NCBI GenBank assembly: GCA_019636755.1
Contig: JAHBWZ010000004.1
Coordinates: 310,001-374,000, forward strand
DNA: 64,000 bases
Reading direction: 5' to 3'
Source: Phycisphaeraceae bacterium
GTDB taxonomy: Bacteria > Planctomycetota > Phycisphaerae > Phycisphaerales > SM1A02
Shown piece after piece: positions 4,505-20,662 of the stretch. A program made the translations under genes and the position numbers. Position 1 is the stretch's first letter. The number at the start of each line of letters is the position of its first letter. The notes under the pieces were generated by a model. That model was not told where the DNA came from. It saw nothing but the letters and a program-made list of their open reading frames with translations, and did not search any database.

Positions 4505-5626
4505 TCAGGGCCGCCAGGCGACGGGCACTTCCGCCACGACGTTCCCATGTGCATCCAGCACCTCGACGCGATCCGCACCCGCCCGGGCGTCGACCAGCGC
4601 GGGGTCGACCCGCACCCTGAGCGTCCAGCGACCCGCGTCCATGGCGTTCGGCGTGAGTTCTGCCGCGAGTCCCGCTGTGCGCCCGACGCACTCGGCCCGG
4701 AGCGGCCCTCCACCGGCGGCGTCATGAATCTCGATGTGCGCGATTCGACTGACCGGTGCGGCTGCATCCGCTGCATCCAGACGGAGCATCGCACCGGCGG
4801 GGACCGCGTATCCGCGCGGCACGACGCGCAGGGAAACCGGGATCACGACGGTGTGATCCATGTCGTCGCTTCGCGCATCACCGGCGATCAGGACCTGGAT
4901 CGTACCGACGTAGACACCCGGTCGAGACGGATGCCGGGCGTCCATCGTGATCCAGACGGCACCCTCGTCGTCCGGTTCTGTATTGAATGTCGGCTCGATC
5001 GGGAGGTCCAGCGGTGTGATTCCGACAAGGCGCAGGTCACCGCCGCCGAAGCGCCAGATCCGCACGCGACGGGAGAACGGCTCACCCGCACCACCGGTGA
5101 TGTCATCCAGCGACATCGGCCGGACCCAGAAGTCCAGTGCCGGCACGAGCGCCAGCCCGAGTTCAATGAGGTGCCCGTCCTCGGACGCATCCTCGAAGTC
5201 CGGCTGACTCCCCGGGCGCCCGGCCCAGAACAGCGCCCGGTGCTGCTGGACGCCGGCCACGGGTGGCGCGAACATCGCCAGCGAGATCGTCGTCCGGGCG
5301 CGGGCGCCCAGTTGCGCCGATCCGTCGGGCAGGGTGACGTCGAGACACGGACAGGTCTTCCTGAGCAGACGGAGTTCCACCACCTCATCGGTCTCGTTCA
5401 CCAGGACGAAATCCGCCACCGAATGTTCATGGACAGGGACCGTGCCCTTCGAGACGTGGGTGGGGCCTGCGACGCGCACATGCGGTCGCAGGCTGACCTG
5501 GTGATGCGAGCGGACATCCTCGGCCGCACCCGGCGCCGCCTGCCCTGTGCATCCGCCCAGGCTCGCCAGGACGTACAGTCCGAGCGCGAGTGCATGGTGA
5601 CGCCATCCGCCGGGTCGGAGCCTCAT
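4505..5626 (-). CDS. lipoprotein with DUF1573-like domain
   Basis: The 373-residue product starts with a basic stretch and hydrophobic run ending in LASLGGC, a lipobox, so it should be lipid-anchored. The segment after residue 60 (VADFVLVNETDEVVELRLLRKTCPCLDV) is the Ig-like fold and CxC motif found in DUF1573 proteins, which are abundant in planctomycetes. The rest is a further beta-rich domain ending with VEVPVAWRP. No enzymatic motif is visible. Its start overlaps the stop of the upstream gene by four bases (5623-5626), so the two are translationally coupled and probably act on the same outer-surface process. Confidence 0.65.
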   Translation of the reverse strand: MRLRPGGWRHHALALGLYVLASLGGCTGQAAPGAAEDVRSHHQVSLRPHVRVAGPTHVSKGTVPVHEHSVADFVLVNETDEVVELRLLRKTCPCLDVTLPDGSAQLGARARTTISLAMFAPPVAGVQQHRALFWAGRPGSQPDFEDASEDGHLIELGLALVPALDFWVRPMSLDDITGGAGEPFSRRVRIWRFGGGDLRLVGITPLDLPIEPTFNTEPDDEGAVWITMDARHPSRPGVYVGTIQVLIAGDARSDDMDHTVVIPVSLRVVPRGYAVPAGAMLRLDAADAAAPVSRIAHIEIHDAAGGGPLRAECVGRTAGLAAELTPNAMDAGRWTLRVRVDPALVDARAGADRVEVLDAHGNVVAEVPVAWRP

Positions 5627-6843
5627 GGATGATCCCCTGCTGCGCGATCCCCCTGGAGGGCAGGATCACCGGGCTCGCCGACGGTGTATCGGATGTCGCG
5701 CGCCTCGTCAGCGATGAGCGCTCCGGGCGGGAACTCGATCCTGAATCGCTCCACCGGAAGCCGCTGGTTGACGGAGCGGATGGCCGTCACCTCGATGTAC
5801 CGTTCGTCCTCGTCGATCTGCGTGAACGGCACACCACCCGGCCCCATGATCTCCCGCGTCAAGGCGCGCATCCTTGCCGTCAACGCCGCCCTGGCCATCG
5901 CCGCCTCCGCAGTCACAGGGTCCACGTGAGATGGCGGGGGGGGCAGGTCATCCAGGTGTCGCTGGAGCGCCGCCAGCCGATCGCGCACTGCCGGCGTGAG
6001 GAGTTCCTCTGCCGCCTCGATGAAGAGGAGTCGATCGCCACCGGTCGGGATGGCGATCCCGTCGTGTACTTCGAATCTGTCTGTCCGGTCGATCACCTGC
6101 GGCTGCCCGGTCAGCGGGTCGTACGAGAAGATCGAGATCAGGCGCGGCGGGGCGTCGACGTCCACGGTGACTCTCAGAAGGCCCCAGTTATGCCATTGGC
6201 TCCAGGTCCTCCCCTCGATCACCGCGGTCATGCGCCCATTCCCATCATCCGTGACATCGTGAATGATCGGGGCCCGGCGGATGACCTCCGCCAGAGAGAC
6301 CTGGTTCAACGCTTTGCGCCTGCCGAGCAGGTGCTCGAGGCTCGGCCATGCCAGGAACTCCTCCGTGTGGCGCCGGACATTCCCGCTGGGCGGCTGGTTC
6401 AACTCGCTCATGGCGCGCATGAATTCGCCGTCATACGCATACCAGACCGGGTGCATGAAGAGATCATCGGTCCCGGGCTGCCGAATGCCATGCCGGCCGC
6501 GCAGCAGCCACCGGCCGTGCTCGTCGAACGCCATCTCGTCCGCATCGGTCAGCACGCGCGTGGGCTTGCCATGCCGCCGACCCCAGCACCGCTGCGACCA
6601 CTCCAGCGTTCGAATGGAGCGATCCTGCATCTCGATCGCGGCTGCCACGACTTCTGCGCGGCGCCGCAGGTCCGCCACCACCTCGGGATCGGTCGGAGGC
6701 GGCCCGCCGAACCACGGCGTGATGGATGCCAGTTCGGTCGGCGGCGGCATGACGCCGGCAGCGTCAACCGACTGCGCGAGCGATGGACGCAGCGGATGCA
6801 GCGCGAGCAGCAGCAGGCACGGCGCGATCCGGATGGCACGCAT
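5623..6843 (-). CDS. exported protein of unknown function
   Basis: The 406-residue protein has a clear signal peptide (APCLLLLALHPLRPSLAQS, cleavage after the AQ region). The mature part contains a region with many Arg, Trp and His residues (residues 60-120) and strands such as RMTAVIEGRTWSQWHNWG and RLISIFSYDPLTGQPQVIDRTD, which look like a LolA-like or outer-membrane lipoprotein-sorting type beta-sheet, but I cannot assign it. The start has GGAGATCG upstream at a suitable distance. It is cotranscribed with the DUF1573 lipoprotein downstream (four-base overlap) and lies 54 bases after the cysteine-rich protein gene. Confidence 0.6.
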   Translation of the reverse strand: MRAIRIAPCLLLLALHPLRPSLAQSVDAAGVMPPPTELASITPWFGGPPPTDPEVVADLRRRAEVVAAAIEMQDRSIRTLEWSQRCWGRRHGKPTRVLTDADEMAFDEHGRWLLRGRHGIRQPGTDDLFMHPVWYAYDGEFMRAMSELNQPPSGNVRRHTEEFLAWPSLEHLLGRRKALNQVSLAEVIRRAPIIHDVTDDGNGRMTAVIEGRTWSQWHNWGLLRVTVDVDAPPRLISIFSYDPLTGQPQVIDRTDRFEVHDGIAIPTGGDRLLFIEAAEELLTPAVRDRLAALQRHLDDLPPPPSHVDPVTAEAAMARAALTARMRALTREIMGPGGVPFTQIDEDERYIEVTAIRSVNQRLPVERFRIEFPPGALIADEARDIRYTVGEPGDPALQGDRAAGDHP

Positions 6844-6897: not shown

Positions 6898-7458
6898 TCA
6901 GATGCACTGATGCACCATGCAGATATTGGACGTCACGACCGTGTCGCCGCTGACGCAATAGCAGCCGTTTGGCGTCCAGAACTGACCGGGTGGCGGGCCA
7001 GCCATCCATCCGCAGCCATTGATCCGCCGAGAGATGGTTCCGCAGTTGATCTGCGGGAGTATCGTCGTGCTGACAACGTTGCAGGTGGAAGTCCCATCGT
7101 AAATGCAGAAGTCACCACCTGATCCTGTCGGGTTGCCCGTACACCATTCACATGTTCCTGAGCACTGCGTCCCGTTGGACGCCAGCTTGCACCCCTTGTA
7201 GTTCCCGTTCCCGTCGCGGATGTACCCGGGCGGGCAGCTGCTTGCGTGCGCGCACCTGAATCCGGGCCAGGATCCGATCACGACCGTCGACGCGGAGGCA
7301 TCTTCGTTCTCCCCAACCACCATGTGCGCCCAGGGAGATCCATCCGGCGGGACATCGCGATCGCCCGCAGCGCCGGCACCGACGATCGCACCAAGGGCGG
7401 CCAGCGCCAGGACCATCATCGTGCGTCCGATCCGACGGGTATGCGTGCATGCGTGCAT
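6898..7458 (-). CDS. small secreted cysteine-rich protein
   Basis: From the ATG at 7458 this gives 186 residues: a basic start, a hydrophobic signal segment (VLALAALGAIVGAGA) and a mature part with about 16 cysteines in CxxC and CxC pairs, such as SGTCEWCTGN, NGCYCVSGD and SNICMVHQC. Disulphide-rich secreted proteins of this kind are known from planctomycetes but have no assigned role. A second possible start is the MM pair at 7419. The start region is an octamer repeat that carries ATGs in several frames behind one ribosome-binding site (aggag), so the frame used may vary. Confidence 0.6.
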   Translation of the reverse strand: MHACTHTRRIGRTMMVLALAALGAIVGAGAAGDRDVPPDGSPWAHMVVGENEDASASTVVIGSWPGFRCAHASSCPPGYIRDGNGNYKGCKLASNGTQCSGTCEWCTGNPTGSGGDFCIYDGTSTCNVVSTTILPQINCGTISRRINGCGWMAGPPPGQFWTPNGCYCVSGDTVVTSNICMVHQCI

Positions 7459-7571: not shown

Positions 7572-9014
7572 TCACCACGGCATGCCGAGCCGGCGCGGCC
7601 AGTGGTCCGCGGGCGGCGGGGCATCCCAGTCGCCGTCGGGGCGGATGTGGTCGAAGATGCCCTCGGCCTGCTTGTCGTAGGCGACGCGACCGTTCACGAT
7701 CGTCCACCTGGCGTGCGTGGCGTAGTGCAGGATGTCGCCGTCGGCGACGATCAGGTCCGCGTCCTTGCCGACCTCGATCGAGCCGACGCGGTCTTCGATT
7801 CCGAGGATCCGCGCCGCGTCCAGCGTGATCGCGCGCAGCGCCGCGTCGTTCGACAGGCCGCCGCGCACACCGAACGCCGCCTCCAGCCGCAGGTGCAGCA
7901 GGTCGCGTCCGCCCAGCCCGCCGAAACTGACGCCCGTCTGCGACGGGATGATCGCCACCGGCACGCCGGTCCGGTGGAGGATGGCGGCGTTCTCGATGTT
8001 CGACCCGTTCTCCCGGTTCAGCCGGTCGTCCGCATCCTGCCGCGCGCGCGGCGTCACGATGACGCCCACGCGGGCGCGGGACAGTTCCGGCGCGACGATC
8101 CACCCCTCCGTCGCGCCGACGACCACCGCGCGGATGCCGTACTGCTCCACGAAGTCGACCACCTGGAGAAGATCGTGCACGCGGTCCGCGGTGAAGACCG
8201 CCACCGCCTCGCCCCGGAGGAGCGCGCGGTACCGGGCAAGATCACCGCGGATCCACGCCTCGTCCGGCTTCTTCGCGTCCGGTTCATCCCGGCGACGGCG
8301 CTCCCACGCCTCGACCTCCTGCTGGTGCCGGCGCAGTCGATCGAAGTTCTCGCGCAGCCGGCGCCGTCCCTGCGGATCCCGCGTGCCGTAGGCGAGCGGA
8401 ACATGCAGGTCCTTGCGCACCACCATGTCGTCGATGGAGCGGTACGCCACCTTGTACGCACCGCTGCCGGAGAAGACTGTCGTGACGCCGCCCGCGAGCG
8501 CGGTCACCGCGGCCAGCGAGAAGGCATCGGTCGTCTCCTCGGGCGGATCGGCGCCCACGAGACCGCTGCTGCGCACGGCGACCAGGCCCGGATAGACGCG
8601 GTGTCCGGTCGCGTCGATCACCTCGGCGCCTTCCGGGATCTCCAGGCCGCGTCCGATCGCCGCGATGCGCGTGCCGCGGCAGAGGATCGTGACGTCACGC
8701 AGCACCGGTCCGGAGACGGTGTGCACGGTGCCGCCGCGGATGGCGAGCCAGCGCTCGGCGGCGTCGTCCGCGGCGGCGGTCGGCGCGGCCTCCTCGGTGG
8801 CAGGCGGCGCGGCACCGGCGTCGTCCTGCCACGGCGCCGCCCCGGCGCGCCCGGCCCCGCATGTGAGCATCACCGCACACAGCAGCAGGAGGGCCGCCAT
8901 CGGATGGCGCCCGCCGATGGCCGGCATCACCCGGATCGGACCCGTCGCGCCCGCACGCGCCGATGGCACCGTCGGCGAAGGCGCCCGGCGGACTTCAGCA
9001 TCACGCATGATCAT
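7572..9014 (-). CDS. exported amidohydrolase-fold protein with degenerate metal site (operon gene 8)
   Basis: The 480-residue product has an Ala/Arg-rich N-terminus with a hydrophobic export segment (MAALLLLCAVMLTCGAG). It then follows the amidohydrolase superfamily: small beta-sandwich strands (GGTVHTVSGPVLRDVTILC), the barrel, and the terminal LGIEDRVGSIEVGKDADLIV signature. At the position of the metal-binding HxH after PG, it reads YPGLVAVRSSGL, so both histidines are missing, and the usual NTD/SDSP aspartate near the end is replaced by SQTGVSF. It is therefore likely catalytically inactive or uses other residues. It overlaps the preceding gene by four bases (ATGA). Confidence 0.75.
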   Translation of the reverse strand: MIMRDAEVRRAPSPTVPSARAGATGPIRVMPAIGGRHPMAALLLLCAVMLTCGAGRAGAAPWQDDAGAAPPATEEAAPTAAADDAAERWLAIRGGTVHTVSGPVLRDVTILCRGTRIAAIGRGLEIPEGAEVIDATGHRVYPGLVAVRSSGLVGADPPEETTDAFSLAAVTALAGGVTTVFSGSGAYKVAYRSIDDMVVRKDLHVPLAYGTRDPQGRRRLRENFDRLRRHQQEVEAWERRRRDEPDAKKPDEAWIRGDLARYRALLRGEAVAVFTADRVHDLLQVVDFVEQYGIRAVVVGATEGWIVAPELSRARVGVIVTPRARQDADDRLNRENGSNIENAAILHRTGVPVAIIPSQTGVSFGGLGGRDLLHLRLEAAFGVRGGLSNDAALRAITLDAARILGIEDRVGSIEVGKDADLIVADGDILHYATHARWTIVNGRVAYDKQAEGIFDHIRPDGDWDAPPPADHWPRRLGMPW

Positions 9015-10378
9015 GGCTTCTCCTCGAACACCGTCTCGCCCAGGATCATGACGCGCGTCACCTTCGCCAGTCCGTCCAGCGGATCGCTCGTCAGGAAGAT
9101 GAGGTCACCGTCGCGGCCCTCGGCGATGGCGCCCAGCCGGTCGTCCACGCCCGCGTAGATGGCCGGGTTGATGGTCAGGGCACGCAGCGCGGCCTCGCGT
9201 GACAGGCCGCTGCGCACCAGGTCCGCGACACGGGCGAAGAGGCTCGAGAGTCGGCCGGTGGGCACGAACGCGACCTCGCAGCCGGCCTGCACCAGTTCGG
9301 CGGCGGAGTTCGTGCGGATCGCGGTGGTCGGCACGGTCCGGATGGTCGGTGCCATCGCCACCAGCGCCTTGCGCTCGCCCAGTCGGGACGCGACCTCGAA
9401 CCAGTCACCGCCGTTGCCGTCCAGGAACCACTGCACGCGCGACCTGATCGGCTGCCGGGCGATGATCGTGTCCACGTGCAGCAGGTCCGAGGCTCGCGCG
9501 AGTTCGATCGCGAGCACCGGCGCGTCCCTGCCGTCCAGCAGGTCCATGAACGGCTGCGCGGCGGGATCGGTCCTGGGCGGCGTGAACTCCGCCGGCTTCG
9601 GCGCCTCGCCTTCCTTCGCAGGCTCGCCTTCCGGCGGCGCGGCGCCGCCGCCGCCGCGCGCCGACGGGCGCGGCGCTTCGGGGCGCGGAGGCGCGGGCGT
9701 CTCCGGCTTCGCTTCCTCCGCCTTCTTCGCCTCGGCCTGCTTCTTCTCCCACTCCTCGCGCGCCTTGCGGATCTTCTCGTTCTCGGCCTTGCCCTTGTCG
9801 AAGCCCTCGCGGATCGCGCGGCGGCCGCTCAGGCTCGATCCGACGATGCGCAGGTACGACGACTCGCGGAGCACGCGTGCGGACGCCGGTCCCGCGGTCC
9901 GGACCACCGCGGCGTGGCCCGGGATGTCCGTGCCCGCCGGGATGTACGCCGCGGCCGTGTATCCGGCGCGGAGCAGGCCGCCGAAGTCGTGTTCATCCAG
10001 GACCAGCTCGTCGAAGGCGCGACGATCCGCGCGGAGTCCCGTGCGCCGGTATTCGGACAGCCCCTGCCGCGTCCGGAGGTGCACGAGCGCGGGCATGACG
10101 ACGGCATCGCCGGCATCGATGACCGTGGCACCGGGCGGGTACTCCGCGCTGGAGCCGACCGATCGGATGCGACCGCCGATGATCACGACCACGCCGGGGG
10201 CATGCTCTTCTCCGGTGCCGGTGATGACGCGCGCCGCGCGCACCACCACGATCGGCTCGTCATCGACCATGGCGGCGCCCGTGGCGGCGCCGACAGGCCA
10301 CCCGCACAGGAGCGCGGCGAGGAGGGCGACCGCGACAAGCGCAGGGGCACGGGTGAGCGTGGATGGCGGCGTCGGCAT
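9011..10378 (-). CDS. exported amidohydrolase-fold protein with degenerate metal site and charged insert (operon gene 7)
   Basis: The 455-residue protein has a signal segment (LVAVALLAALLCGWPVGAA). The site that should hold HxH reads MPALVHLRTRQGL, without the metal pair. In the middle there is a long Glu/Lys/Ala coiled-coil-like stretch (KAREEWEKKQAEAKKAEEA) followed by a Pro/Gly/Ala-rich linker, then a second half of the barrel beginning near FMDLLDGRDAPVLAIELA. The end keeps YAGVDDRLGAIAEGRDGDLI. The linker makes a two-lobed extended protein likely. It is 46 bases after gene 6 and overlaps gene 8 by four bases. Confidence 0.75.
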   Translation of the reverse strand: MPTPPSTLTRAPALVAVALLAALLCGWPVGAATGAAMVDDEPIVVVRAARVITGTGEEHAPGVVVIIGGRIRSVGSSAEYPPGATVIDAGDAVVMPALVHLRTRQGLSEYRRTGLRADRRAFDELVLDEHDFGGLLRAGYTAAAYIPAGTDIPGHAAVVRTAGPASARVLRESSYLRIVGSSLSGRRAIREGFDKGKAENEKIRKAREEWEKKQAEAKKAEEAKPETPAPPRPEAPRPSARGGGGAAPPEGEPAKEGEAPKPAEFTPPRTDPAAQPFMDLLDGRDAPVLAIELARASDLLHVDTIIARQPIRSRVQWFLDGNGGDWFEVASRLGERKALVAMAPTIRTVPTTAIRTNSAAELVQAGCEVAFVPTGRLSSLFARVADLVRSGLSREAALRALTINPAIYAGVDDRLGAIAEGRDGDLIFLTSDPLDGLAKVTRVMILGETVFEEKP

Positions 10379-10424
10379 TGGGTCCTTCCGAGTGGGTCCT
10401 TCCGAGTGATGCCTTCCGTCCCGG

Positions 10425-11717
10425 TCAGAACACGCGCTGCACGGCGGCGTCGTAGTGCACGCGGCCGTCGATGACTGTCATGAGGCACTGCGACCGCGGA
10501 TCGATCGGGTCGCCGGTCCAGAGGCCGAAGTCGGCATCCTTGCCGACCTCGATGGAGCCGACGCGCGACTCGATCCGCAGTGCCCGGGCGCCGATCCGCG
10601 TGATTCCCTTGAGCGCCTCGTACGGCTTCCATCCGTAGTACACGCCCATCGCCGCCTGGTACGAGAGTTCCTCCTGCGGGATGACCGGCGCGTCGGTGTT
10701 GATGCCCAGGTCGCGCAGGCCTCCCTGCCACCACCGCGCCGCGATGCCGTTGAACCGCCGCTGGGTCGGATCCAGGTAGAACGCGCGCGGACCGCAGATC
10801 GTCATGACGTGGCCGGCCTCGAGCACGAGCGGCGCGGTCTTCCACGCGTCGAAGGTGCTGTGATCGAGCACGGTGAACAGGCCGAGCCGGTTCGCCAGCA
10901 TGTCGACGGTCGTCATGACGACCTGGTACTGCTGCGTGTGCACGGACGCGATCATGTCCCACGTGAAGAGCCCGCGGAAGTCCTCGTAGATCGGATTGAA
11001 CCTGGGGCGCTCCGCGGACTCGCCCGACTCGAATCGCACCCACGCGTCGTGGTACGCCTTGGCGCCCTCCAGCGTCCGACGGGTGTTGTAGTTCATCATC
11101 GTCCGGCCCACGCCGAACCAGTACCGTTCCGGGTTGCCTGCCTGCGCCACCTTCAGGGAACCGGGCGACTGCACCACCATGTCGTCCACGGTGGGACCGG
11201 AGAACTTCACGATCGTTCCGAATCCGGTGATGTTGGTGCCCGACCCCGGAATGAGCAGCGCGGTCGTGACGCCGCCCGCGCGCGCCCGCTTGACGTTCGG
11301 CGACTCCGGCACGACGGTCTCCAGCGACCGGAGCCCCGGATTGGCAAGGTAGACGAGGTCGTTCAGATCGCCCAGGGCGCCGGCGGTGTGGTTGTGCAGT
11401 TCCACCAGTCCGGGCACCAGCCACGCCTGCGGCTGCTCGATCACGCGGCTGCCCGCGGGAATCTCCACCGCGCGTGCACGTCCCACCTGCGTGATCCGGC
11501 CGTTCTGCACGAGGACGACCGCGTTGTTGATCACGCGCTCCTCGTCGTCCATCGTGATGACCTTGCCGACCCGGAAGGCGATCGTCGTCCCGTCGTCGCT
11601 CCCCTGCGCGTGCGCCGGGACCGCCGCCGACAGCACGACCGGCAGGAGCGCCATCGCCATCGCGATCGCCCGCGCCATCGTTCCCATCGGACTCGTCGGA
11701 TGCATCGGACGCGTCAT
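10425..11717 (-). CDS. exported amidohydrolase, the only one of the operon with intact metal motifs (operon gene 6)
   Basis: The 430-residue protein has a signal peptide (MAMALLPVVLSAAVPAHAQ). The canonical motif VPGLVELHNHTAG carries the HxH metal pair at about residues 90-95. Further superfamily features are LDHSTFDAWK, GHVMTICGPR and INTDAPVIPQEE, the last giving the catalytic aspartate. The end is RVGSIEVGKDADFGLWTGDPID. By family it should be a metal-dependent hydrolase acting on an amide, imide or ester bond outside the cytoplasm; the substrate is unknown. The contrast with its seven degenerate neighbours suggests that it is the catalytic member of a set. Confidence 0.85.
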   Translation of the reverse strand: MTRPMHPTSPMGTMARAIAMAMALLPVVLSAAVPAHAQGSDDGTTIAFRVGKVITMDDEERVINNAVVLVQNGRITQVGRARAVEIPAGSRVIEQPQAWLVPGLVELHNHTAGALGDLNDLVYLANPGLRSLETVVPESPNVKRARAGGVTTALLIPGSGTNITGFGTIVKFSGPTVDDMVVQSPGSLKVAQAGNPERYWFGVGRTMMNYNTRRTLEGAKAYHDAWVRFESGESAERPRFNPIYEDFRGLFTWDMIASVHTQQYQVVMTTVDMLANRLGLFTVLDHSTFDAWKTAPLVLEAGHVMTICGPRAFYLDPTQRRFNGIAARWWQGGLRDLGINTDAPVIPQEELSYQAAMGVYYGWKPYEALKGITRIGARALRIESRVGSIEVGKDADFGLWTGDPIDPRSQCLMTVIDGRVHYDAAVQRVF

Positions 11718-14497
11718 GGCATCACCTCCTCGCCCTTGATGAGCACCCGCCTGACCATGGACGCGGGCTCCAGCGGATGGTCGGAATACAGCACAAGGTC
11801 GGCGTCCAGGCCGGGCTCGATCCGCCCGACCCGATCCTCGATCCCGAGCAGCGCCGCGGCGTCCATGGTCGCCGCGGCCATGGCGCGCTCCGGCGAGAGA
11901 CCGCGCTCGACCGCGGCGAGCAGGCGCTCGCGCAGATTCCGGGCGCCGTCCTCTGCGCCGCTGGCGAATGCGGCCCGGATGCCGAGCCTGCCCAGCGACT
12001 CCATCCTGGCGCGGCCCGCGGCGTCCGCGGCCTCCGGCGGAAGGATGACACCGACGTTCTTCTCCTTCAGGAGATCGGCGACGACGTGCGCCTGCGCGGC
12101 GCCCATGAGAACCAGCCGCGCGCCGGCATCCGAGGCCGTCTGCACGATCTGCCGGATCTGCACGGCGCCGTCCACCTCGACGAGCAGCGGCGCCTTCCCC
12201 TGGAGCACCGCGCGGAGCGGCTCCAGCGCGTCGTTGACCGCCGGGGGCTGCGGACGGCCATCCCGCGCGCGGCTGCGCGACGGGGCAAGCACGCGCACCG
12301 CCGCGGTCTTCTCCACGCGCGTGGCTTCGAATGCGATCGAGATGCCCATGAGCGCGATCTGGCCGGACATCCGGTCCTCGCCGGTCAGGCGACCGGTGAA
12401 GGACGGCGTGCCCATGCCGCCCGTTTCGATCTCGATGCGGCCGGAGATCCGGTCACCCTCCAGGGTGCCGACGATGCGGTGCTCCACGTCCGTCGCAGGC
12501 TCGATCAGCCGTCCTTCGAAAGACGCGCCGGTCAGTCGAAGCGACACGCGGCCGGACATCGGTTCCGGCAGCGGCATGCCGCTCATCGTGCCCGACCACA
12601 CCCCGGTGATCGGATCGGTCTCCTGCCGGACGACCGGCTCGGCGGGTTCCGGCGCGTCGGCCGGCTTCGCCGCCGAGGCGCCCTCCGCCTGCTTCTTCGT
12701 CCACTCCGCGAGATCGTTCTCGTACTTCGTCCACAGGTCGAGATACCGCTTCGCCTCGGCCAGTCGCGTGCGCAGCGGCGCCGCGGCATCCAGCGGGTCG
12801 CCCGATCGAAGGTCGAAGTGCACCGCGCCCGGCGCGCGGACCAGTCGGGCGCTTCGCCCGGCGGATCCCGTCGCGACGATCGCGGTCTGCGACCCGCCGG
12901 CCGCAGGCTCGTACGCGGTGACGTGCACGGTGGTGACGCCCGCCATCGCCAGGCGCTGTTCGGGTCGATCGCCGAGGCCGATCAGCCGTGCGAGCGACAG
13001 TCCGGGTCCGACCTGCCGTCGATCGCCGCGCAGCCCGAGATGGCCCCGCGCGTCGATGAAGCCCGGCGCCAGGAACGCACCGGCCCCGGCATCGATGACG
13101 CGGGCGCCGGGCGGCTGCGCCACGCGATGGCCGACCTCGACGATCCGCCCGTTCTCGATGAGCACGCCGCCGCCGTGCAGCACGCTGCCCGGACCGCGCC
13201 AGATGGTGCCCGCGCGAACGACAAGCGTGTCATGCACGGGCGCACGCCAGGCGAGCCGGCCGCGGACGTAGGTCCGCTGGACATGCGCCACCGCCTGCAG
13301 CGGATCATCGGTCAGGACGACGAAGTCCGCGTCCATCCCCGCGCGGATCGCGCCGACGCGATCGCCCACGCCGAGGATCTCCGCCGGAACGCGCGTGATC
13401 GCGGCAAGGATGCGTTCGGCGGACAGTCCCGAGCGCGCGGCAACGGCCGCGGCGAGCCGGAACCGCTGCGGCTGATCGACGGGCGGCGCGAAGGCGAGCG
13501 TGAGATGCGCCAGCCCGGCGAGTGCCCGCAGGTCCGGATCGACGACCGACGTGTCGGTCCCCAGGTCCGGTGCGGCGCCGTTCAGGTGCACTTCCAGCGG
13601 ATGCACCAGCGGAATGCCGCCCTCGGCAAGCCGGTCCGCGGCGCGCACCACGCGGCTGTTCCCGATCACGTACCCCGACCGCGAAGACGCCAGCAGGAAG
13701 GCCACCGCCGCGTGGACATCCGCCGGCTCATCCGCGCGGATCCGCAGCGGCGAGCCCGCGCGCCACGCGGAGGCCAGCGCTTCGTCGTGCACCCGGTCCG
13801 GGCCCGGGCCGGCGAGCGACCGCTCGATCGCTCCCTTGAGCGTCGCCACCTGCGTCGCGCGCGATCCCGGGCGCTGCGGCACCGGCGGCTGGATTGCAAG
13901 ATCGGACGCGGGAGGCACCAGAAACTCCACGCGATCGGGCGGGCGCCAGGCGCCAGGCCCCAGCGCGACGGAGAGGTCCGCCTCCTCCAGCAGCAGGCGC
14001 TGTTCCGGCGGCCCGAAGAGGCGCACGACCGCACCGCGCCCGGCGATCAGTCGATGTTCGCCGGGTCCGACGTGCACTGTCGTGATGCCGGCGCCCAGCC
14101 ATGCCGTCGCGTCGGCGTACAGATCGACCGCGTCGACCGCGCGATAGGCGGCGCCGGTCGATTCCTCGCCACGATGCGGCGCGCCGAAGCCGGACGCTGC
14201 GACCAGGCCCGGGATCAGGACGGAGTCCGGGAGATCGAGCAGCGGCAGGTCATCGGGAATCGAGAGGTCGGATCCGACCGCGGCGATCACGCCGTCACGG
14301 ATGATGAGTACGCCCGGCTCGAAGACCGCCGGTCCATCCGCGGCGGCCGTGTGGATCCGCCTGGCACGGACCGCGAGCGAACTCTCATCCGCCATCGACG
14401 GCGCCGCCGTCAGCACGACGAGTACCGCGGCGATCGCGCCGCGATGCCACTGCGGACGCCGCGCATCCGCCGGACGCCTCCGGGCGGTGTCGATCAT
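11714..14497 (-). CDS. double-domain amidohydrolase-fold protein with inserted beta domain (operon gene 5)
   Basis: The 927-residue product has a signal segment (GAIAAVLVVLTAAPSMADE) and two amidohydrolase halves. The first (about residues 40-420) reads IPGLVAASGFGAP where HxH is expected; the second (about 430-927) reads APGFIDARGHLGLRG, keeping only the second His. Both halves end in the LGxxDRxGxIxxGxDADxV signature. The second half is interrupted by a charged linker and a domain of repeated short beta strands (DPITGVWSGTMSG, SGRVSLRLTG, GDRISGRIEIETGG, GEDRMSGQIAL) that may be a small barrel or carbohydrate-contacting module. It looks like a fusion of two neighbouring genes of the same type. 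Confidence 0.75.
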   Translation of the reverse strand: MIDTARRRPADARRPQWHRGAIAAVLVVLTAAPSMADESSLAVRARRIHTAAADGPAVFEPGVLIIRDGVIAAVGSDLSIPDDLPLLDLPDSVLIPGLVAASGFGAPHRGEESTGAAYRAVDAVDLYADATAWLGAGITTVHVGPGEHRLIAGRGAVVRLFGPPEQRLLLEEADLSVALGPGAWRPPDRVEFLVPPASDLAIQPPVPQRPGSRATQVATLKGAIERSLAGPGPDRVHDEALASAWRAGSPLRIRADEPADVHAAVAFLLASSRSGYVIGNSRVVRAADRLAEGGIPLVHPLEVHLNGAAPDLGTDTSVVDPDLRALAGLAHLTLAFAPPVDQPQRFRLAAAVAARSGLSAERILAAITRVPAEILGVGDRVGAIRAGMDADFVVLTDDPLQAVAHVQRTYVRGRLAWRAPVHDTLVVRAGTIWRGPGSVLHGGGVLIENGRIVEVGHRVAQPPGARVIDAGAGAFLAPGFIDARGHLGLRGDRRQVGPGLSLARLIGLGDRPEQRLAMAGVTTVHVTAYEPAAGGSQTAIVATGSAGRSARLVRAPGAVHFDLRSGDPLDAAAPLRTRLAEAKRYLDLWTKYENDLAEWTKKQAEGASAAKPADAPEPAEPVVRQETDPITGVWSGTMSGMPLPEPMSGRVSLRLTGASFEGRLIEPATDVEHRIVGTLEGDRISGRIEIETGGMGTPSFTGRLTGEDRMSGQIALMGISIAFEATRVEKTAAVRVLAPSRSRARDGRPQPPAVNDALEPLRAVLQGKAPLLVEVDGAVQIRQIVQTASDAGARLVLMGAAQAHVVADLLKEKNVGVILPPEAADAAGRARMESLGRLGIRAAFASGAEDGARNLRERLLAAVERGLSPERAMAAATMDAAALLGIEDRVGRIEPGLDADLVLYSDHPLEPASMVRRVLIKGEEVMP

Positions 14498-15960
14498 TCG
14501 ACGATCCTTTCGCGGCGCCCGGGGCGCTGGCCCGGCGCCGGTGCCGCAGGCGCCGGCGCCGCACCGGCGGTCCCGTCCGTGCGCTCCGCCGCCGGCGCAT
14601 CGTCGCCGCTCTCATCATCGCCGGTCGAGCCGGCCTGGAGCAGGCGCTGAAGCCGGTGATCGCGCGACCGGTCATACGCATGCACTCCGTCGATCCATGC
14701 GTGCTCGACCCACGAGGAGAAATCCAGCGGATCTCCGGTCAGCGCGACGATGTTCGCACGCTTCCCGGGCTCGATCGAGCCGAGCCGGTCCGCCAGGCCC
14801 AGCATCTCCGCCGGTCGCAGCGTGATTGCCCGCAGGGCCTCGTCGCGAGGCACGCCGCCCCGGACGCAGACCGCGGCCTGGTAGGTCAGGTAGCGTTCCG
14901 CCAGCGAGCCGTCGGGGTCGGGCCTGATGGCGAACGGAATGCCCGCCGCGTGCAGGACCGCCGGCAGGAACGTCTCCACGATCTCTTCCGTGTCCGGATC
15001 GACGCGGCGCTCGACGAGCGCCGGGCCGATCACCACCGGGCGCCGGACGCGGGTGAGTTCCGCGATCGCCCGGTGCGCATCCGTGCCGACGATGAAGACG
15101 GCGCGGTCGAGGATCTTCTCCTCCTCCGCGAAGCGCACCGCGTTCCGCAGGTCCGTCGCGGTCACCGCGTGGAAGAACGGGATGATCGCCCCGCGCGAGA
15201 GTCGGACCAGGTTGCGGATCGGATCGCCCAGGTCGGTCTCCCGGACCAGGTCCGCGCCCCGGCGCCGCGCCTCCGCCGGCGCCACGTCGACGGGCTTCGA
15301 CGCCTTCTTCTGCGCTTCCTCGTACTTCGTCTCCGCAAGGGTGTCGAAGTCGTACCGCATCCGCGCGAATGCATCGCGGAGGCGGAACATCTGCTCCATG
15401 CGATCCGCCCCGGAACGCGGCGAGGTCACGAGCTTGAGGGCGACCTCCGGCGCGATGGTCATCTCGCCGACGCTCAGACCGATCGGTCGGACGACCCGGC
15501 TGACCGCACTGATGGCGCAGTTGGGTCCCTGCATGACGTGCACAGTGGTGATGCCGCTGCGCAGGGCATCCTCGAAGTACAGCCGCGACGGGTCGATCGC
15601 GTCGTAGACGTCCAGGAACGGCACGACCGGGATGTTCTCGTTCGGGATGTCGAGCCCGCGGAACGAGTCCGGGTCGATCATGCCCGGCATGAGGACCAGG
15701 CCGGTGCAGTCCACCTCCATCGCGTCATAGGGGATGGACACCTCGCGACCGACCGCGACGATCAGCCCGTCCTCGATGAGGATGGTGCCGTCGTCGATGT
15801 CATCGCCTGCGACGGGAATGATCCGGGCGCCGGTCAGCGCCAGTTTCGACGGTGGTGCAGGCGCCTGCGCCCACGCCGGCCCGGCGGCACCCAGCACGGC
15901 AGAGACGAGGCACAGGGCCAGTCGCCGGAGGCGACCGGCGACGGGAGGACAGGTACTCAT
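14494..15960 (-). CDS. exported amidohydrolase-fold protein with degenerate metal site (operon gene 4)
   Basis: The 488-residue protein has a signal segment (LALCLVSAVLGAAGPAWAQ). The motif after PG is MPGMIDPDSFRGLDI, which lacks both histidines. The pattern PRDEALRAITLRPAEMLGLADRLGSIEPGKRANIV shows the usual C-terminal half. The tail is a Glu/Asp then Ala/Pro-rich, low-complexity extension. It overlaps genes 3 and 5 by four bases on each side, so translation is coupled along the operon. Confidence 0.75.
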   Translation of the reverse strand: MSTCPPVAGRLRRLALCLVSAVLGAAGPAWAQAPAPPSKLALTGARIIPVAGDDIDDGTILIEDGLIVAVGREVSIPYDAMEVDCTGLVLMPGMIDPDSFRGLDIPNENIPVVPFLDVYDAIDPSRLYFEDALRSGITTVHVMQGPNCAISAVSRVVRPIGLSVGEMTIAPEVALKLVTSPRSGADRMEQMFRLRDAFARMRYDFDTLAETKYEEAQKKASKPVDVAPAEARRRGADLVRETDLGDPIRNLVRLSRGAIIPFFHAVTATDLRNAVRFAEEEKILDRAVFIVGTDAHRAIAELTRVRRPVVIGPALVERRVDPDTEEIVETFLPAVLHAAGIPFAIRPDPDGSLAERYLTYQAAVCVRGGVPRDEALRAITLRPAEMLGLADRLGSIEPGKRANIVALTGDPLDFSSWVEHAWIDGVHAYDRSRDHRLQRLLQAGSTGDDESGDDAPAAERTDGTAGAAPAPAAPAPGQRPGRRERIVE

Positions 15961-17633
15961 GCGGCGGGTCTCCTCCGGGGCGTCCGGGAGGGGGCAGGTT
16001 CTTCGGCGGGTGCGGCGCCGGGCGCGGCGCCCGGGGCGGCGCTGTCCGCCACGGCCGGTGGACGTTCATCGAGCACGATCCGGCCGCCGATCAGGATCAG
16101 CATCGGCCGGGCGCCCGCTTCGTGCGGCGCGGCGTTCCAGACGACAAGATCGGCGTCCTTGCCCGCGGCGACGGTCCCGAAGCGATCGTCGATTCCGAGC
16201 ACGCGGGCGGGAATCGACGTGGTGGCGCGCAGGGCGTTCTCCGGAGAGAGCCCCGCGCGCACGGCATGCATCATCTGACGCGCCAGCCCGTCCTCCTCGC
16301 GGAGGTCGCGGGCGGAGAGCGCCGTCTCGATGCCTGCCTCGAAGAGCCGGACGATCGTGCCCAGCCGGGCACCGCGCGACTCCGCCGCGCGCATCCCGGG
16401 ACCGCGCGGGGACCACTCGATGGGACCGAAGACGACCGGCATCGCCGCGGCGCGGATCTCGTCCAGGCACTTGTGCGCCTCGACGCCCTCCAGCAGCGTG
16501 AAGCGCAGGTCGAACTCCTGCGCCAGGCGGAGCGCGGACAGGATGTCGTGCTGCTCCCGCGCCTGCATGCGCAGCGGGACCTCTCCGCGCAGCACGTCGC
16601 CCAGGGCGCGCAGCGCCGGCTCCGACGGCGTATCAGCGCCGCCGGTCAGGGGTTCACCGCGCTCGAACGCGCGGGCCTCGTAGAACGCCTTGCGCATGAC
16701 CCAGGTCAGGCCCATGCGCGTGCTCGGGCGCCGGCTTCGAATGGAGAGATTGAATCGCGAGGGCGGGCCCTTGCGGACGGCGCCGCGGAAGGGATCGCTG
16801 CCGACGACCGCGGTGACCGCGCTGGTCTCCTGGACGAACCGCTGCCGGATGGGGCCCGCGGTCCGGACGACCGCGCCGGCCGGTCCGATGACCACCGACG
16901 GATCCGGTGCGGCGAAGACCGTGGTCACCCCGCCGCGGAGCAGACGTGCGAAGTCCGTTCCGCGCAGGTTGATCGCATCGGCGATGCGGATGTGCGGCAC
17001 GATCTCCTCGGAGGTCTCGCTCAGGACCAGGCCAGGTCGCACGCCCGACGCGAGGTCGCCGATCAGGTGCTCGAAGATGGAACCGGGCCAGCCGCAGACG
17101 GGGCAGATGATGCCGTCGTCCAGTTCGTCATGCACCGCGGCGAAGGCGCAGCTGATCGTGCCGTCGCACGCGGCGCAGTTCGCCGGATCGTGCGTCTGCA
17201 GGAACATCGTCTGCATCGGGTTCATCCTGCCTTCCTGCGACCGCGGAAGCAGATTCGCCGGCTCCACCAGCGCATTCGCGTCGATCAGGCCGGGTGTCAG
17301 GACCAGCCCCGCGATGTCGATCACCGTGGCGCCGCGCGGCAGGTCACCGACGGCACCGGATGCGAAGACACCGTCGATCCGCCCGTCGCGAATGACGACG
17401 GTGCCGCCCTCGAGCGCGGTGCCGTCACCCACCAGGATCGTCGCCTGTCGCAGGACGATGACGCGTTCGGACGCGGCACACGCGTCGCGCACCACCGCCG
17501 GCGGCAGGAGCAGGCCGGCAACGGCGAGCAGGATCCCGATCATCGCCCGCGCGGCGCCGTCGGCGCGGACCGCAGGCGCCCGGTGCGTCGCATGACCCGG
17601 AGAAGCGGAGACCGTCGAATCAGTGCTGAGCAT
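15957..17633 (-). CDS. amidohydrolase-fold protein with a four-cysteine insert (operon gene 3)
   Basis: I start this gene at the ATG at 17633 because a GAGGTGA ribosome-binding site lies five bases upstream; a GTG at 17726 that overlaps the previous stop is the alternative. The 558-residue product has a signal segment (IGILLAVAGLLLPPAVV). The HxH site reads TPGLIDANALVEPANL and is lost. Directly after it comes an insert with two cysteine pairs, NCAACDGTISC and GIICPVCGWPGS, spaced like a zinc ribbon, which I do not know from ordinary amidohydrolases. The C-terminal signature LGIDDRFGTVAAGKDADLVVW is present, followed by an Ala/Pro/Arg-rich tail. Confidence 0.75.
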   Translation of the reverse strand: MLSTDSTVSASPGHATHRAPAVRADGAARAMIGILLAVAGLLLPPAVVRDACAASERVIVLRQATILVGDGTALEGGTVVIRDGRIDGVFASGAVGDLPRGATVIDIAGLVLTPGLIDANALVEPANLLPRSQEGRMNPMQTMFLQTHDPANCAACDGTISCAFAAVHDELDDGIICPVCGWPGSIFEHLIGDLASGVRPGLVLSETSEEIVPHIRIADAINLRGTDFARLLRGGVTTVFAAPDPSVVIGPAGAVVRTAGPIRQRFVQETSAVTAVVGSDPFRGAVRKGPPSRFNLSIRSRRPSTRMGLTWVMRKAFYEARAFERGEPLTGGADTPSEPALRALGDVLRGEVPLRMQAREQHDILSALRLAQEFDLRFTLLEGVEAHKCLDEIRAAAMPVVFGPIEWSPRGPGMRAAESRGARLGTIVRLFEAGIETALSARDLREEDGLARQMMHAVRAGLSPENALRATTSIPARVLGIDDRFGTVAAGKDADLVVWNAAPHEAGARPMLILIGGRIVLDERPPAVADSAAPGAAPGAAPAEEPAPSRTPRRRPAA

Positions 17634-17722
17634 CGTCGTCACCTCGTCTGCATTCCACCGGAGACGTGTCATCCCCCGTGCCGCGCGGCCGTTCGACGCC
17701 GCATCACGATGGATCTCTCTGA

Positions 17723-19069
17723 TCACGCGCCACCCCCGCTCTCATCGTCCTCCAGCGTCCCCGGCCCGCCGTTCCCCGCCGGCCGCCGTCGCGGACGATC
17801 GGGCACCGCCGGTCGCACTTCCACGCCCGCCAGCCGTTCTCCCTGGACGTAGACGGCAAGGACGCGGGAGGCCGGATGCAGCGGGTCGCCCGAGAACACG
17901 ACGAGGTCCGCGTCCAGCCCCGGCGCGATGGAGCCGAGGCGCCCGTCCAGTCCGAGCGTGCGCGCGGCGTCGCGCGTCATGGCCCGGCGCGCCGCGGCGG
18001 GATCGAGCCCGGATCGCACGGCGCGCATCGCGCCCGCTCGCATCGCGTCCGGTCGTCTCAGCGGCACGCCGCCACCGAATGTGAACGGCAGGCCCGCGCG
18101 TTCCATCTGCCGGGCGACCGTGAGCCGTTCGATCGAGTCCGTGTCGGCGGGGATCGGAAGAATGAGCGGGATCGTGGAGCCGCCCTCCAGTTCCTCGACC
18201 AGCACCGAGGCGCGCACGCCGGCGCCCACGGAAAACACCAGGCGCGGTGTCCCCGACCCGAAGAGGATCAGCGCGGCGTCCAGGTCCTCCGATGATGCGA
18301 TGTGCACGAGCAGGGTCCGGTCGCCCCGCATCGCCTCGGCAAGTGGATCGGCCGCGCCGGCGGCACGACCGGTGGCCTGGCCGGCGGCGATCGCCTCGCG
18401 GAGCATCGAGATGGCGCCCGCACGGCTCGACGGCGCACGATCGAAGGCCAGCGCCGACGGTCCGAGCGTCACGAGCAGCGGGCCGTCATGCTCCAGGATC
18501 TCGCCCGCGCCGCGCGCGGTCTGCGTCCGGATGACGGCGCAGCACCCGCCGATGAGCAGGGAGTCCGCGGGCCTGATGAGCGCGGTGGTGACGCCGCCGC
18601 GGACCGCGTCAAGCAGCGCGGGGTCGTACGGATCGAAGGCGTCCGCGACGCGCGTCGAGGCGTCGATCGACGACGCCCGCTCGTCGGCGCGCCCATGCAC
18701 GCCGAGCACCGAGAGCGTGTCGATCAGGCCCGGTGACAGCACCGCGCCCGGCCAGTCCTCGATGATCCAGCCGGCGCCGGCCACCCCGGCCGGGTGCGCC
18801 CCCGGCGCATGGATCGCCGTGATCCGCCCGCCTTCAACCGCGACCACGCGGTCCGTCGCCAGCGTTCCGTCGGGCAGCACGATGGCGCCGGGACGGATCA
18901 GGCGGCGCGCGGGTTCCTCGCGCGGCGCGCCCCAGGCCGGCACCGGCCCGGACGCGGCCACGGCCAGCGCGATCAGCGCCGATGTCTGCACGAGCGCGGC
19001 CACCCGCGTCCCGCGCCGCGCCGCGGCGACGCGCGCTCCCGGGGCGCGCCCTGGATTCATGACGCTCAT
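17723..19069 (-). CDS. exported amidohydrolase-fold protein with degenerate metal site (operon gene 2)
   Basis: The 448-residue protein has a signal segment (LVQTSALIALAVAASGPVPAWG). The key motif is SPGLIDTLSVLGVHGRA, where the HxH pair is absent. The barrel carries DAVRGGVTTALIRPADS and the end is TLGLDGRLGSIAPGLDADLVVFSGDPL, followed by an Arg/Pro/Gly-rich tail. Start and stop overlap neighbours by four bases. Confidence 0.75.
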   Translation of the reverse strand: MSVMNPGRAPGARVAAARRGTRVAALVQTSALIALAVAASGPVPAWGAPREEPARRLIRPGAIVLPDGTLATDRVVAVEGGRITAIHAPGAHPAGVAGAGWIIEDWPGAVLSPGLIDTLSVLGVHGRADERASSIDASTRVADAFDPYDPALLDAVRGGVTTALIRPADSLLIGGCCAVIRTQTARGAGEILEHDGPLLVTLGPSALAFDRAPSSRAGAISMLREAIAAGQATGRAAGAADPLAEAMRGDRTLLVHIASSEDLDAALILFGSGTPRLVFSVGAGVRASVLVEELEGGSTIPLILPIPADTDSIERLTVARQMERAGLPFTFGGGVPLRRPDAMRAGAMRAVRSGLDPAAARRAMTRDAARTLGLDGRLGSIAPGLDADLVVFSGDPLHPASRVLAVYVQGERLAGVEVRPAVPDRPRRRPAGNGGPGTLEDDESGGGA

Positions 19070-20662
19070 GGCGCCTCCCCGCCGATCCGCGCGGCGTCAT
19101 AGACCTGCGTGCCACCGATCCAGACCTGCGCGACGCGGCTTCCCGGCTCGCGCGGATCGCCGGTCCAGAGAACGAAGTCCGCGAGCAGCCCCGGCGCGAT
19201 TCGACCGACGTCGCCGGCCATCCCCAGGGCGCTTGCCGCCTGTGCGGTGACCACCGCCAGCGGATCGCACGCACCCCGCGCCACGGCACCGGCGGCATCC
19301 AGGAGGAAGCGGGCCGCGGATCCGCCGCCCGATCCGAATGACCACGTCACGCCCGCGCGCGTCAGTCGCTCGATGCCGTCCATCGGCGCCCGGCGCCAGG
19401 GGCCGTCGCTCACGCCGCCCGCCTCGGGCGCAGGCAGGAGCACGACCGACGCACCGGCGGCGGCGATCTCATCGGCGAGCAGTCCCGCTTCCGCGCCGCC
19501 CTCGATGACGATCTTCAGCCCGAACTCGGCGCCGATCTCCAGGGCGTTGAGGATGTCCTCGCTCTCGTGCGCCCGGACGCGCACCGGGATCTCGCCGCGC
19601 AGCGCCGGCGCCATCGCCTCCAGCGAGGGATCGCGGCGCGGCGGCTGCGGCTTCTTTCCCGGCTCCGTGCGCGGACGCGCCGTCGCACCGCGCGGTTCCG
19701 CGGCCGGCGGCGGTCCACCCGGCCCGGCGGGTCCCGCGCCGGGACGGCGCCTCGGACGCGGGGGCGGCGGCGGTTCGTCGTCCAGCGTGCCCGGCTCCAC
19801 GAGGTCCCCGTCATCGGGCTCCGCGTCCGCCGCGCGCCAGACCCCTCGCGCGGCGGCCGCCGCCCGGGCGGGCCGCCCTCGCGCGACGCGCCGGGCCACC
19901 GCGCGACGCGGGCAGCGCCTTCCGCCCGGCCAAGGCGTCGGCAGGCGGCAAAACGGCCGCCGGCGCCTCCTTCTCCTCTTCGCCCAGCTTCGCGATGTAC
20001 TCGGCCAGTTCCGCCTCGTAGTCGGTCCACGCGTCCAGGTTCGCCTTCGCCTGTCGCAGCCGGGCACGGATCTGGTCCAGCACGCCCAGCCGGTCGATCG
20101 TGCGCTCGCCCGGTCGAAGGTCGATCGTGTACGTCGCGATGGCGCGGAGCGGTCGACCGAACGCGGCGCCATCCCGCTCCAGCCGAAGCACACCGCCCGC
20201 GGGGCCGACGCCGCGCAGCGGCGCGGGCGACAGGTGCAGCGTGGTGACGCCGCCGGCGAGCAGTTCCTCGATGGAGCGCGTCGCCATGCCGTCGAACGCG
20301 TCGATCATGCGGCCCGCGGGATCGGCCCAGCCCGCATCGCCGGTCAGGAACGTGGAAGCCACGTCGATCAGGCCGGGCGTCAGCACGAGACCGCTCGCAT
20401 CGATGCGCCGTGCGCCACGGACCTGGACGGTGTCTGCCTCGACACGGTCGATCCGACCACCGCGCACGACGACCGTGCCGCGCTCCAGGTCACGGCCATC
20501 CATCGTGAGAATGCGGGCGCCCTCGATGACCGTGGGACGCGCTCCGAACTGGCCGTGGGCGGAGGTCGCGGAGGCGAACAGGGCCAGCGCGATCGGGACG
20601 GGACGGAACCGTCGACCGGCGCCCCTCACGCCATGCCGACCCGACTGGCGATCGCTCGTCAT
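19066..20662 (-). CDS. amidohydrolase-fold protein with frameshift in the linker (operon gene 1)
   Basis: Two frames together give one member of the family. The first, from 20662, has a signal segment (VPIALALFASATSAHGQ), the motif TPGLIDVASTFLTGDAG without HxH, and a helical linker (LDAWTDYEAELAEYIAKLGEEEKE). The second frame continues from about 19880 with GVWRAADAEPDDGDLVEPGT, a Pro/Arg linker and the second barrel half ending GDVGRIAPGLLADFVLWTGDP. The shift falls in an extremely GC-rich Ala/Arg linker around 19850-19920, so a base-calling error is as likely as a real mutation. It is the promoter-proximal gene of the operon. Confidence 0.65.

Follow-up and report, generated by a model that had tools for sequence, protein, structure and literature searches.

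Pseudoenzymes that scaffold or regulate an active partner are already known, usually with one or two of them per system. Protease cores of the ClpP/ClpR type and similar paralogue rings are hetero-oligomers that mix active and inactive paralogues, which are co-encoded in cyanobacteria. Among proteins of the amidohydrolase fold, the inactive pDHO chain of the Pseudomonas aeruginosa ATCase is needed for both the assembly and the activity of its partner enzyme (PMC7053772), and the animal CRMP/DPYSL family comprises several paralogous proteins without dihydropyrimidinase activity that prefer to form heterotetramers (PMC4051505). Here, we describe an operon in which a single amidohydrolase with an intact metal site is encoded among degenerate paralogues. 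No description of this operon was found in the open literature searched, a collection with few subscription papers.

Layout of the operon and its catalytic-type subunit

On the minus strand of the window (the whole stretch of 64,000 nucleotides analysed here), eight genes run from 20662 to 7572 in the transcription order g8, g7, g6, g5, g4, g3, g2 and g1. They encode nine amidohydrolase-fold domains, since g4 carries two; the initial annotation had described eight proteins. All eight genes score above the 25-bit cut-off of Pfam Amidohydro_1 (PF01979), g8 through its C-terminal part. The first gene, g8 (19066–20662; motif IDVASTF), codes for a predicted exported, degenerate amidohydrolase and is frameshifted in the window; it is followed by g7 (17723–19069; IDTLSVL; 448 aa), g6 (15957–17726; IDANALV; 589 aa counted from the longest-ORF GTG) and g5 (14494–15960; IDPDSFR; 488 aa), each encoding a further protein of this kind. 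Next comes g4 (11714–14497), whose exported product joins two degenerate domains in one chain, 4a (about 13226–14377; VAASGFG) and 4b (11714–13225; IDARGHL), and then g3 (10425–11717; VELHNHTAG; 430 aa), the putative catalytic-type member, likewise exported. Two further exported degenerate amidohydrolases, g2 (9011–10378; VHLRTRQ; 455 aa) and g1 (7572–9014; VAVRSSG; 480 aa), complete the operon. The gene calls are mechanical, and those of g6 (GTG) and g1 (ATG) are longest-ORF starts, such that the true starts may lie further in.

Six of the seven gene junctions are 4-base stop/start overlaps (five ATGA and one GTGA), the exception being a 46-base gap between g3 and g2; the overlaps suggest translational coupling. 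Hydrophobic export signals, judged from hydropathy and AxA-type sites, precede the domains both in the window and in its relatives, and the C-terminal LGxxDRxGxIxxGxDADxV signature is recognisable in all nine domains, although more diverged in g2 and g8. The initial annotation is borne out on each of these points, having noted that nearly all genes overlap by four bases and that all members keep export signals and the C-terminal signature; the motifs it quoted were also found in place, with the HxH pair in g3 only. Directly downstream of g1, on the same strand, lies a small exported Cys-rich protein with a hydrophobic start and numerous closely spaced Cys residues (6898–7400), and a 406-aa exported protein is encoded further downstream of the operon, also on the minus strand (5623–6843).

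The two halves of g8 sit in different frames, with the shift located somewhere between about 19940 and 19820, inside a Pro/Ala/Arg-rich low-complexity linker. Orthologues of g8 are single open frames in the eight genomes checked and in one further locus (L043); the shift in the window may be a real mutation or an assembly error, two origins that look alike in the sequence at hand. Another single frameshift within the operon was seen in genome G019, where the g6 orthologue is spread over two frames (L034, 6422–8072).

By sequence alignment, the metal ligands of g3 are H108 and H110 (11388–11396), H260 (10938–10940), H286 (10860–10862) and D342 (10692–10694), all on the minus strand. Of the g3-type domains, 95 are fully covered and all 95 have the full H,H,H,H,D set, three more rows being truncated. 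All five columns are invariant, with an entropy of zero; we infer a metal-dependent activity for this subunit. Its nearest solved protein is PDB 3ooq from Thermotoga maritima (E 9e-36), an amidohydrolase of unknown function. None of the named amidohydrolase equivalogs in NCBIfam, Xaa-Pro dipeptidase among them, reached its curated cut-off. All matches fell far below, the best for g3 scoring 71.7 bits where 500 are required, and no substrate can be named in this way. A small amide, a dipeptide-like compound or a cyclic amide would be in keeping with the superfamily, yet this substrate class is only a guess.

The former metal site and the fold of the degenerate domains

At all loci examined, the complete ligand set is absent from every domain of the other eight groups. 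The least degraded group is g4b, where the second His persists in 54 of 73 domains, the Asp in 25 of 77 and the HxH pair in a few; g5 retains the first His in 50 of 65. The degenerate groups have 40 columns that correspond to ligands, and 27 of these exceed the 60th percentile of column entropy, as opposed to their invariance in g3, so that selection in these members appears to hold the fold and not the old pocket. Conserved exceptions are a Gly at the β-6 site of g1, g4a and g8, a Gln and a Glu in g6, and a His and a Leu in g5. The column analysis revealed no alternative conserved set of metal ligands at the old site in the degenerate groups, most of whose former ligand columns are highly variable. 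In g6, we also identified a zinc-ribbon-like insert with a Cys/His cluster (CxxC..C..H..CxxCG; 17091–17177, minus strand), present in most aligned orthologues, lost in some and located in a low-confidence region of the AF2 model. Together with the conserved Gln/Glu of g6 and the His of g5, this cluster leaves a little room for alternative ligands, which the initial annotation had named as an observation contrary to its reading.

The AF2 models of g4 and g6 display a TIM barrel with a β-sandwich cap, matching 3ooq and other amidohydrolases, and the fold is assigned to the other genes of the operon by sequence alignment only. The g6 model has a core pLDDT above 90 and 3ooq as its best fold match (E 1.9e-33, TM 0.87 by target). 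For the g4 model, with a pLDDT of 88, domain 4a aligned to 3ooq with a Z of 42.4 and domain 4b to other amidohydrolases with a Z of about 24. Domain 4b additionally contains an all-β insert of about 100 aa (about 12308–12616, minus strand).

Distribution, gene order and selection across the Planctomycetota

A scan of one genome per species returned 173 relatives of g3. We retained 80, nearly all of them from Planctomycetota or uncultured MAGs. With profiles for the nine groups, 56 of 83 loci contained all nine domains in the order g8-g7-g6-g5-g4a-g4b-g3-g2-g1. The incomplete loci are mostly cut at contig ends, one is a split operon (L087), and in two others (L103 and L105) g6 is too diverged for its profile. 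Exceptions to the order were seen in 2 of the 83 loci, each consisting of one odd match assignment among g6–g8, and no member on the opposite strand was found in the 83 loci. The gene order that the initial annotation had proposed to look for in Phycisphaerae was found there and reaches other Planctomycetota—the nine-domain arrangement is not a product of chance, as the nine corresponding domains recur in matching order across the phylum.

Among 392 sampled Planctomycetota genomes, g3 was detected in 100 (E<=1e-80), g5 in 97 and g1 in 88 (both at E<=1e-70), with g3 and g5 occurring together in 91 against 25 expected, an expectation that ignores kinship. Every genome in which g3 seemed to lack g5 has weaker g5-type matches, in most cases also on the contig of g3, and some of these matches are other operon members picked up by the g5 profile. 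Conversely, all g5 genomes lacking a strong g3 have weaker g3-type matches. In G375 and G426 these share the contig of g5, as does a partial match in G504; in G183, G237 and G321 they lie on a different contig and may be paralogues. Across clades there was no conserved neighbour other than amidohydrolases, and the unit is therefore self-contained; a flanking partner gene as a clue to the substrate was likewise ruled out, the neighbours being clade-specific only.

Copy number varies at the catalytic position. Between g4b and g2, five distant lineages have 4, 4, 1, 5 and 2 catalytic copies with the order unchanged, and all copies carry HHHHD bar one with HHHHN. The eight degenerate positions are constant in these lineages, although a few domains have diverged so far that they score best, weakly, with the profile of a neighbouring group. 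Two loci (L087 and L093) contain g3-g2-g1 only, with g8-g7-g6-g5-g4a-g4b on another contig of each genome. We also found separate loci of the same order, pairs and trios, in which a catalytic domain is accompanied by one degenerate domain or two, frequently fused to it within one ORF; they were picked by their match to g3, a choice that guarantees the active domain but has no bearing on the degenerate neighbour. Examples are L039 (3343–9233) and L040 (3062–6222) in the window's own genome and L042 (4115–6855) in G028, each with a single catalytic domain beside one or two that are degenerate. The β insert of g4b resembles a segment of the trio protein of L039 (a weak match, E 0.005, one pair), which weakly hints at a shared origin of the insert and the trio linker.

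A tree built from 120 domains resolves every one of the nine positions as one group (SH-aLRT 97–100, including 100 for g1; 76 for g8), from which it follows that the positions are old; it also unites the catalytic domains of the pairs and trios with those of the operon (SH-aLRT 84). Selection was estimated as omega with the Nei-Gojobori method, a simple one, on nine to twelve close pairs per group. The median was 0.042 for g3 and 0.055–0.09 for the degenerate groups, indicating strong purifying selection on the degenerate paralogues. Relaxed selection on these members, which the initial annotation had named as an observation that would speak against it, is rejected by these values.

A putative exported assembly, its alternatives and its known relatives

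We regard it as rather probable that the products form an exported hetero-oligomer, in which a constant scaffold of pseudoenzymes offers one exchangeable slot for a catalytic subunit. The nine paralogous domains would be exported through Sec-type signal peptides to the periplasm or outside the cell and assemble there, g3 would serve as the metal-dependent hydrolase subunit, and the eight domains without a metal site would provide an unchanging framework, structural or regulatory, by which g3 is held, stabilised or gated; in other lineages, the same framework would be paired with up to five catalytic copies. We favour this reading because of the fixed frame, the variable slot, the likely coupling, the fusions of degenerate to catalytic domains and the selection on the fold rather than the pocket; the physical assembly and the scaffold role themselves are what we infer from this pattern of genes. 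The g4a–g4b fusion, the retention of both halves where the operon is split, the co-occurrence of g3 and g5, the self-contained nature of the unit and the two precedents of the same fold, pDHO and the CRMPs, were also counted in its favour. The initial annotation had read the locus as encoding an exported complex of several subunits, one of them catalytic and many others pseudoenzymes with a structural or regulatory part, and that reading is supported. A more specific version, which we put forward tentatively and hold to be somewhat less probable than its negation, is a eukaryote-like paralogue ring in which eight position-specific pseudoenzyme domains frame one slot, filled by one to five catalytic subunits, across much of the phylum.

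Against a hetero-oligomer, it can be said that conserved order and coupling would also be seen in proteins that are co-regulated without binding one another, that the degenerate members are unequally dead, as seen in the residues kept by g4b, g5 and g6, and that the window's own g8 is frameshifted. The degenerate proteins might be separate exported binding proteins that capture, store or sense the substrates or products of g3, co-expressed with it and not part of a complex. Co-regulation would account for the shared operon and order, each group has conserved motifs specific to it, and the conserved pocket replacements (Gly at β-6 in g1, g4a and g8; Gln/Glu in g6) could bind a ligand. However, a conserved binding site would not vary as most positions of the former pocket do, which rank with the more variable columns. 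Fusions of degenerate to catalytic domains in sister loci speak for contact, and independent binders would not require all eight positions to be kept together phylum-wide. We hold this explanation to be unlikely.

We give still less weight to the idea that some degenerate members are enzymes with a metal-independent or differently liganded site, which would turn the operon into a multi-enzyme pathway. The strong purifying selection on each degenerate member and the partial retention of ligands in g4b (His 54/73, Asp 25/77), of one His in g5 and of the Gln/Glu and Cys/His cluster in g6 would fit such a pathway, but in g1, g2, g4a, g7 and g8 no other set of ligands is conserved where the metal site used to be, the Cys cluster of g6 is absent from some orthologues, and amplification is limited to the catalytic slot. 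As for decaying duplicates carried along with g3, the frameshift of g8 in the window and the split g6 of G019 are what such decay would look like; nevertheless, we reject it as very improbable on the omega medians of 0.055–0.09 over nine to twelve close pairs per group and on an order fixed across the phylum, to which the ancient orthologue group formed by each of the nine positions can be added.

Set beside known systems, the proposed hetero-oligomer has parallels in part. PDB 3ooq is the closest solved relative of g3 and the best fold match of both the g6 model and domain 4a, but it is one catalytic-type protein, bearing HxH, H, H and D, and its PDB entry has the same sequence in all ten chains; we know of no degenerate partners for it, and the literature searched yielded no paper on it. 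The Planctomycetota pairs and trios, for which no functional study was found in the open literature searched, belong to the same sub-family and place a degenerate domain beside or fused to a catalytic one, with their catalytic domains falling next to g3 in the tree (SH-aLRT 84) and the C-terminal partner of the trios grouping with g5 (SH-aLRT 95); where the operon has eight degenerate domains, however, they have only one or two. In the P. aeruginosa ATCase, as in the proposed complex, an inactive amidohydrolase-fold chain serves an active partner, but that system is cytosolic, has one type of pseudo-chain and works with a transcarbamoylase rather than an amidohydrolase. The CRMP/DPYSL proteins resemble the operon products as a set of several amidohydrolase-fold paralogues, in their case without dihydropyrimidinase activity, yet they are cytosolic signalling proteins with no operon and no active subunit in the same unit. 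Finally, ClpP/ClpR cores have an unrelated fold, fewer inactive types and a cytosolic or plastid location.

For most genes of the operon, the annotation 'amidohydrolase family protein' is misleading as to function, and the locus opens to experiment, in a bacterium, the broad question of why dead copies of an enzyme are kept by selection, and how. Compared with the one or two pseudoenzymes usual in the described systems, eight position-specific degenerate domains are here kept around one putative catalytic subunit, phylum-wide and, as their export signals suggest, outside the cytosol.
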